From Clostridia bacterium (lineage in GTDB: Bacteria > Bacillota > Clostridia > Christensenellales > CAG-917), in assembly GCA_017461985.1 (NCBI GenBank), contig JAFTSA010000008.1, forward strand, positions 1 to 64,000: a DNA stretch of 64,000 bases. The letters are read 5' to 3'. The notes below the pieces were generated by a model. That model had not been told where the DNA came from and did no database searches. It saw only the letters and a program-made list of their open reading frames with translations. This document shows, one piece after another, positions 30,171 through 44,750 of this stretch. Numbering within the stretch: position 1 is the first letter of the stretch; each line of letters opens with the position of its first letter. The position numbers and the translations under genes were made by a program.

Positions 30171-30258
30171 TGGTGCCGGTGGACGGACTCGAACCGTCAC
30201 GGAGGATTAGTCCACAGGATTTTGAGTCCAGCGCGTCTGCCAATTTCACCACACCGGC
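30171..30258 (-). tRNA. tRNA-Leu (anticodon CAA)
   Basis: Minus strand GCCGGTG pairs with CACCGGC in the acceptor stem. The D-arm GTGAAATTGGCAGACGC is leucine-type, the anticodon loop is CTCAAAA (anticodon CAA), there is a long variable arm, and the T-loop GTTCGAGTC is normal. The anticodon stem has one T-T mismatch at its second pair. Discriminator A and CCA are encoded. Confidence 0.92.
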
Positions 30259-44015: not shown

Positions 44016-44381
44016 GGGGGTGTACTGGATTCGACTACTGGTTGGAGTCGGGATAAGCATGTCGCAGGCTCGTCTGCGTTAAAACGGAAAGCTAAAATTA
44101 AATGCAAAAAACAATACTATGAAATCCACCAACATGGGTTTCGCCCTCGCTGCATAATTTAGTCAGCGTGTCGCCCCGAGGTTTTCTGTTCCCTTGGCAA
44201 GCGGTATCAGAAAAACAGACAACGCCAGCCTAGTGTCCTGTAAGTTGGTTGTCATGAAGGACTCATCAATCTGCGGTTCGCCCACGTACCAAAGTGCGAA
44301 AAATCTAAACGTGAGATAAACATGTAGAAAGTCGCGGTGAAGGCTTTTAGGACCGGGGTTCAACTCCCCGCATCTCCACCA
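44016..44381 (+). ncRNA. ssrA: tmRNA (ssrA), one-piece form
   Basis: The 5' GGGGGTGTACTGGATTCGAC and 3' GGTTCAACTCCCCGCATCTC with encoded CCA form the alanine tRNA-like domain. The tag frame runs from the resume codon GCA at 44104 to TAA at 44155-44157, giving AKNNTMKSTNMGFALAA, whose LAA end is the proteolysis signal. It rescues stalled ribosomes with SmpB, encoded about 15 kb away at 58937-59389. The 3' 21 bases plus AAAA are repeated 330 bp downstream. Confidence 0.97.
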
Positions 44382-44384
44382 AAA
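44361..44384 (+). repeat. tmRNA 3' end, direct repeat 1
   Basis: Twenty-four bases from the T-loop (CAACTCCCCG) to just past the CCA (CACCAAAA), identical to 44691-44714. Confidence 0.95.
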
Positions 44385-44690
44385 AGTAAGAAACACGAAC
44401 CCTTGGGTGCGTGTTTTTTGCTTTTTTGATACGGAAATAGTATGTTGCAGGGGAGTTGAACAGGAGCGTTAAGAAAATGGTGGACACCCACCATTTTTAG
44501 CAATGACCACAAAACAAAGGACAACCAAGCGCTTGTCATTTGAGTTGTCCGCGTGAAGTGGACGATACTGTCCACATAGTGCGAAGCACAGCAACTTGTT
44601 GTATCACGAAGTGAATGTGGGCAAGCAAGACCGAAGCATTGAGCAAGGCATACAACGATATAAGCACTCTTGCCTTGCGAAATGCAAGAA
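44385..44690 (+). repeat. Hairpin array downstream of ssrA
   Basis: About 305 bp without a gene. It starts with a terminator and contains an inverted copy of 12 bases of the tmRNA T-arm (44450-44461 versus 44358-44369). It also has a 10-bp perfect hairpin with a T run (44474-44497) and further stems GTGGAC/GTCCAC, GTGC-GAA-GCAC and TCAC-GAA-GTGA. Near its end GCAACTTGTTGTAT matches the array after tRNA-Leu(GAG), in a similar context of a GTGC-N3-GCAC hairpin before and a short stem after. Stems differ in sequence but keep pairing. Confidence 0.8.
44391..44419 (+). terminator. Terminator directly after ssrA
   Basis: AAACACG / CGTGTTT with an inner CCTTGG loop, then T run. Confidence 0.85.
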
Positions 44691-44714
44691 CAACTCCCCG
44701 CATCTCCACCAAAA
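44691..44714 (+). repeat. Copy of tmRNA 3' end, direct repeat 2
   Basis: Identical over 24 bases to 44361-44384, spacing exactly 330 bp. The tRNA-like 5' partner is missing, so this copy cannot be a functional RNA end by itself. Confidence 0.95.
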
Positions 44715-44719
44715 GGACA

Positions 44720-44750
44720 AAAAACCCACTCTTATGAGTGGGTTTTGTTT
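44720..44750 (+). terminator. Distal terminator of the ssrA array
   Basis: AAACCCACTC-TTAT-GAGTGGGTTT with flanking T run. It lies right after the copied tmRNA end and is also positioned to end the converging exporter gene on the minus strand. Confidence 0.9.

Follow-up and report, generated by a model that had tools for sequence, protein, structure and literature searches.

The window analysed here, a stretch of 64,000 nucleotides from a Clostridia bacterium (contig JAFTSA010000008.1 of assembly GCA_017461985.1, positions 1 to 64,000), contains ssrA, the gene for transfer-messenger RNA (tmRNA), whose 3′ end is repeated downstream beyond an array of hairpins. We read the insert as a small integrative cassette, a mini-island with no recombinase of its own that was set into the ssrA T-loop by site-specific recombination, and we put the probability of this reading at about two in three. 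It belongs to a family that sits behind many tRNA genes in gut bacteria of the Christensenellales type, and whose members are probably moved by serine recombinases encoded on larger islands at the same sites. Underlying this reading are the geometry of the repeat, a junction that recurs at C56 in many tRNA isotypes, arrays both tandem and nested, sites with and without the copy in related genomes, a difference in array length between orthologous loci, and a 15.8-kb island with a large serine recombinase (LSR) gene and the same junction. Both the genome-wide family and the link to serine recombinases go beyond an earlier note on this DNA, which had been made from the sequence alone. The attachment site is the T-arm of ssrA, GGGGTT/CAACTCCCC, where the slash marks the point between T55 and C56, and the features of the locus are as follows.

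44016-44381, + strand: ssrA (tmRNA), intact, with CCA encoded (ARAGORN; Rfam RF00023, 142.5 bits)
44361-44384, + strand: proximal repeat copy, T-loop C56 to CCA and a following AAA, part of the functional ssrA
about 44382-44427, + strand: first terminator-like hairpin with T run, putatively borne by the cassette (fold)
44444-44461, + strand: inverted arm, the reverse complement of the 3′ half of the T-loop/T-stem, which can pair with either direct copy (sequence match, fold)
44462-44508, + strand: first half of the type A hairpin core, AGCGTTAAG-hairpin-TTAGCAATGACC (alignment, covariance model, covariation)
44509-44632, + strand: nested type B hairpin element with GACC on both flanks (the covariance-model match is split there)
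44633-44690, + strand: second half of the type A core, GAAGC-hairpin with GA/GA internal loop-GCAAGAA, and right end of the cassette (alignment, covariation)
44691-44714, + strand: distal copy of the ssrA 3′ half, putatively the displaced original 3′ end (attR side)
44721-44746, + strand: second terminator hairpin, presumably the original terminator of ssrA (terminator scan)

The 24 nt at the end of ssrA (44361-44384), CAACTCCCCGCATCTCCACCAAAA, recur exactly at the distal position, from the T-loop through CCA, just as the earlier note had described, and the inverted 12-bp T-arm copy that it placed between them is the 12-mer GGGGAGTTGAAC at 44450-44461, the reverse complement of the ssrA T-loop/T-stem. 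The series of hairpins it saw between the direct copies is borne out by folding (z = -8.7 against dinucleotide shuffles) and resolves into two elements, a type A core and a 124-bp type B element nested within it at GACC. In the predicted fold the inverted copy pairs with the distal direct copy and so encloses the hairpin array. Both proposed terminators are present, the distal one by scan and the proximal one in the fold, although a simple terminator scan did not flag the latter. No integrase gene was found in the 306-bp stretch between the copies, in agreement with the description of a short insert without one, and no promoter-like site was found at the array. An Rfam scan of the window returned only the tmRNA and tRNAs above the gathering score.

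If our reading holds, recombination between T55 and C56 of the ssrA T-loop would insert a cassette that brings along a 3′ half and a terminator of its own. ssrA would thereby stay whole, and the original 3′ half would be pushed downstream to become the distal copy. Gene-less cassettes of this kind would be moved in trans by LSR islands at the same site, or left behind by such islands. We infer that an LSR acting in trans is the enzyme and that the cassette still moves or did so until recently.

A genome search with the insert turned up pieces of it elsewhere in the source genome, several of them directly downstream of tRNA genes. We therefore collected 44 distinct tRNA and tmRNA genes with their 3′ flanks, 43 of which were usable in a match test that required at least 16 of 21 bases in the downstream flank to be identical to the gene's own C56-A76 half. 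Such a copy was present behind 12 of the 43 genes, against 5 of 1356 mismatched gene/flank pairs, so the ssrA repeat is not a chance match; with looser criteria that admit indel-bearing cases the count rises to 15-18 genes. Each of these genes is followed by one to four copies, usually at distances of 110-310 bp, that run from C56 of the T loop (TTCRA becoming CRA...) through CCA and then into a terminator. The layout of the inserts is also shared: tRNA 3′ half, CCA, terminator, inverted T-arm and hairpin core, with the junction inside the T loop and at C56 in most units. Several arrays are tandem, as in a tRNA-Thr array with four copies in register at 166-bp spacing, one tRNA-Leu with three tandem copies, and one tRNA-Ser where a type A unit is followed by two type C units.

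Core types A to E are a grouping by eye, and covariance models back A and C. Type A is found behind ssrA, two tRNA-Ala genes and tRNA-Ser loci, type B is nested within A at ssrA and occurs in Leu and Thr arrays, type C serves most isotypes, and types D and E are found at Leu. The earlier note had proposed building a covariance model from the array and scanning related genomes; strong type A cores appeared only in the genus used for the ssrA comparison, behind tRNA or tmRNA 3′ halves, and the type C model gave 18 matches, nearly all in tRNA 3′ flanks. The outer helix of type A, formed by the inverted arm and the distal 3′ half, varies with the host tRNA. Its inner hairpins covary independently of the tRNA, with 92.5% of cells paired and a covariation score of 0.445 (0.205 for shuffles and 0.06-0.13 for slid controls), values that come from seven sequences and from a structure predicted from the very alignment on which it was scored. 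Both halves of the T-arm have their complement in type C units, where extra hairpins separate the two at the T loop, and type A units carry the right half of the complement only. Of 34 units, 23 have an inverted right arm whose best match among the tRNAs is the tRNA of the host.

We also compared related genomes, one per species, the nearest of which belong to congeneric species. Within genus g8 the ssrA copy is present in three genomes (G018, G020, G023) and two are copy-free (G009, G022); synteny upstream of ssrA is conserved between G009 and G018/G020, which have the upstream gene in common. At an orthologous tRNA-Ser locus the source genome has one unit and its congener G002 has three (C-A-C), with flanks that are 76-79% identical, and the tRNA-Ser together with its array is inverted relative to the conserved flanking genes (L024 in G002, L074 in the source genome). 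The variation of ssrA within the genus and the position of the arrays, mostly at tRNA 3′ ends, support the proposal already made in the earlier note, that of a minimal non-autonomous element integrated with attachment-site (att) geometry.

To reach the enzymes we relied on orphan cores, which have a tRNA 3′-half copy but no nearby tRNA. LSR genes end at or near the unit in L115, L131/L274 and L177; in L130 the LSR end lies about 250 bp from the unit, and L211 holds an LSR remnant. The domains are Resolvase, Recombinase and a Zn ribbon. The fullest case is the 15.8-kb island of G062 (L280), in which an intact tRNA-Leu stands at one end and, 15.8 kb downstream, the LSR gene, a core and an exact (21/21) copy of the tRNA-Leu 3′ half form the other; besides the LSR, this island carries type III restriction-modification genes, an SNF2-type helicase and a tyrosine integrase of 314 aa (Phage_integrase). 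LSRs are present in 26 of 43 family genomes. At one edge of source contig C5 (C5:1-140, L079 1-140) we found the C-terminal coding end of an LSR (E = 8e-9 to the L274 LSR); next come a terminator and then a type A unit with a 3′-half copy that matches the tRNA-Ser at the edge of C8 (L075/L278). Since the LSR C-terminus and the tRNA-Ser stand on opposite edges, an LSR island probably lies in the C8/C5 assembly gap. As a separate observation, the LSR coding ends in L115, L177, L130, L211, L273, L274 and L079 read GTTY followed by 25 nt with CCA as their last bases, mostly with a terminator behind, and in these seven a 26-nt pseudo 3′ half overlaps the LSR C-terminal codons. An apparent LSR fragment within the small units L113 and L136 was rejected, since the L177 open reading frame (ORF) just extends into the unit.

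The family extends well beyond the source genome. The type C core (CGCTRTTCCGTCGC..GCTCCTTACRA) was found in at least 120 stretches of Clostridia metagenome-assembled genomes (MAGs), among them Candidatus Borkfalkia, placed in Christensenellales by NCBI, and Coproplasma, placed elsewhere in Clostridia. The 139 core matches listed comprise 58 with a tRNA or tmRNA and a 3′-half copy, 7 with a tRNA and no copy, 31 that lie no further than 1 kb from an edge, and 43 with no tRNA in the upstream kilobase; that is, among the matches listed with a tRNA or tmRNA no more than 1 kb upstream, 58 of 65 bear the copy, and 13 gene types are represented. Viral contigs, scanned with two motifs in search of phage carriers, gave no matches. 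The last two groups include two kinds of site that resemble the T-arm in sequence. One is the anticodon loop of tRNA-Ser in antisense (TTT/CAAGACCG), which repeatedly holds the core (L111, L137, L144, L167, L188, L191, L197, L200, L207, L218 and L223); the 5′ part of the gene is duplicated in some of these cases. The other consists of genome-wide repeats akin to repetitive extragenic palindromic (REP) sequences (GTCATT/../CGACC), which hold the core at a TTCGA site (L134, L140, L152, L158, L159, L174, L179 and others). Cores in such places point to specificity for a DNA site rather than to a function of the tRNA end. In L139 (1078-2235) a transposase ORF, IS3-like by eye, lies between tRNA-Thr and its 3′-half copy.

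Within the window there is a second array.

249-565, − strand: array downstream of tRNA-Leu 566-649 (−)

It contains a type C remnant (411-457), a type B element (299-398) and, at about 249-263, a 15-nt copy of the tRNA 3′ end. This type B element and one in the tRNA-Thr array (G000:C4) are relatives of the element nested at ssrA. No such array was found downstream of the window's tRNA-Leu at 30171. Two further observations were made: a tRNA-Arg-like gene fragment in L249 (G000:C8, about 42144) is split in the T-loop by a type C core, in the order left T-stem, core, right half to CCA, and another repeat, ATGGCATCAATGCAAAGCATTGTATG..., with no obvious relation to the T-arm, lies behind tRNA terminators in L060, L041 and L066.

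Nevertheless, several points weigh against insertion of a mobile cassette by an LSR. The relatives include copy-free ssrA loci, as reported above, but no exact empty site with both flanks conserved was found among them, the nearest being congeneric species and not strains; neither a circular form, an empty-site strain nor activity was seen. No LSR is assembled in the source genome, only the presumed tail, and the enzyme is not settled because the 15.8-kb island encodes a tyrosine integrase as well. Moreover, the inverted T-arm matches each host tRNA, and we know of no serine-recombinase att site that needs a host-matched inverted T-arm. Core types are common to several isotypes while the arms follow the host, a pattern not expected from the simple transfer of cassettes. 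The matched arms might be explained by gene conversion among cores, by selection for symmetric att sites or by a guide-like function.

The strongest competitor, which we nonetheless consider unlikely, is integration at the same T-loop by a tyrosine recombinase, either an Xer-like protein resident in the genome or an integrase borne by an island, for instance the 314-aa protein of L280. Most islands integrated in tRNA genes use a tyrosine recombinase, and T-loop sublocations are classic for these integrases, which we count in favour of this option along with the Phage_integrase gene of L280 and the single Xer-family recombinase of the source genome. However, that sole tyrosine recombinase is XerS/XerC-like and not an island integrase, so we rejected it as a dedicated enzyme, and wherever an orphan unit does have a recombinase gene next to its junction, that gene encodes an LSR.

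Quite improbable, in our estimation, is the idea that the split inverted copies are working guides, which as folded single-stranded DNA or RNA would rebuild the host T-arm duplex, direct recombination to a single tRNA gene and, after each jump, be re-templated from the target. Slightly less credible still is nucleic-acid-guided insertion as such, in which inverted T-arm halves, split by hairpins at the crossover, would guide the element to its tRNA in a manner that might be likened to the target loop of a bridge RNA or to IS200/IS605 guide sequences. The complementarity of type C units to both halves with a split at the T loop, the host-specific arms and the strong fold would all suit it, but type A has the right half only and the candidate enzymes are missing from the source genome. 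For the IS110 bridge-RNA system, a search for PF02371 (DEDD/Tnp20) in the source genome and in 23 family members found none; for IS200/IS605 and REP-RAYT, Y1 transposases are absent from the source genome and the Y1 loci fetched from relatives have no core nearby. If the guide reading were true, the cassettes would form a system for tRNA genes that is guided by nucleic acid and can be retargeted.

The earlier note had raised a structured RNA as an alternative. Such an RNA, or a regulatory 3′ trailer, would put the tRNA 3′ end to a second use as a decoy, processing signal or minihelix, and we regard this reading as very unlikely. In its favour, the helices covary, the array lies on the same strand as the tRNA and terminators flank the hairpin arrays, but there is no promoter-like site, presence and number differ between congeners, and the type C cores in the antisense tRNA-Ser loop and in the REP-like repeats reuse no tRNA 3′ end. 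Least probable of all is that the gene end was duplicated in tandem or by slippage and gained its hairpins afterwards, with no site-specific recombination: some arrays (Thr, Leu) are indeed regular tandem repeats and homologous recombination could multiply units, but isotypes and genomes that are unrelated have the same left junction at C56, which is also common to different core types and to the 15.8-kb island, and the tRNA 5′ half is not duplicated.

Three other routes were considered and dropped. Reverse transcriptase (PF00078) is absent from the source genome, which removes a group II intron or retroelement, and an integron was rejected because the source genome has no IntI, only the Xer-like protein. 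A casposon-like target-site duplication, which would explain host-matched 3′ copies, was set aside, since past CCA the repeat lacks a fixed right boundary and an LSR had turned up; no Cas1 search was made.

On the cassette reading, an attachment site in a tRNA gene can carry an entire array of gene-less cassettes, each roughly 100-300 bp long; this is seen at about a third of the tRNA genes in one 1.4-Mb genome, and also in many animal-gut Clostridia MAGs. The family is a pointer to serine recombinases that use the T-loop of many different tRNAs, and a T-arm with its cassette core makes a compact natural site for tests of recombinase specificity. It also prompts one to ask how the arms stay complementary to their respective host tRNAs, and annotators should note that an additional tRNA 3′ end in such a genome is probably an att copy.

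Finally, we compared the cassettes with known systems; in the open-licence papers covered by a literature search on duplicated tRNA ends and small tRNA-associated repeats, the family is undescribed. Islands and integrative and mobilizable elements in tRNA or tmRNA genes likewise restore the gene and leave a duplicated 3′ end at the far end. Their integrase is usually of the tyrosine type and the element kilobases long, whereas the ssrA insert has 306 bp between copies and no integrase gene of its own was found. Integron attC arrays resemble ours in their small tandem cassettes, folded inverted-arm sites and growth at one place, but here there is no IntI and the att site is the tRNA T-arm. IS110 bridge RNAs and IS200/IS605 guides also carry arms whose sequence complements the DNA on either side of the insertion point; the source genome lacks their enzymes, and the 3′ half is duplicated here. 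REP/REPIN-RAYT elements are similarly short, palindromic and non-autonomous, but our cassettes are specific to T-arm-like sites and RAYT-like Y1 genes are unlinked to the core. The closest precedent is the ssrA islands of Dehalococcoides, where the serine recombinase DsiB inserts in the middle of the T-loop and islands are tandem, with 20-bp repeats and some without an integration module (McMurdie et al., 2011; PMC3146451). The two systems resemble each other in a serine recombinase of about 540 aa adjoining the att site (here in L115, L131/L274 and L177, with only an LSR C-terminus at a contig edge in the source genome), in direct repeats of 20-21 nt of the gene 3′ end and in a tandem arrangement. 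They differ in that the Dehalococcoides islands, from another phylum, bear genes and use ssrA only, whereas those described here occupy many isotypes as well as ssrA and are gene-less, about 100-300 bp long and built of hairpin cores. What is new relative to this precedent is thus a set of recombinase-less cassettes of 100-300 bp, spread over many isotypes and carrying inverted arms matched to their hosts.
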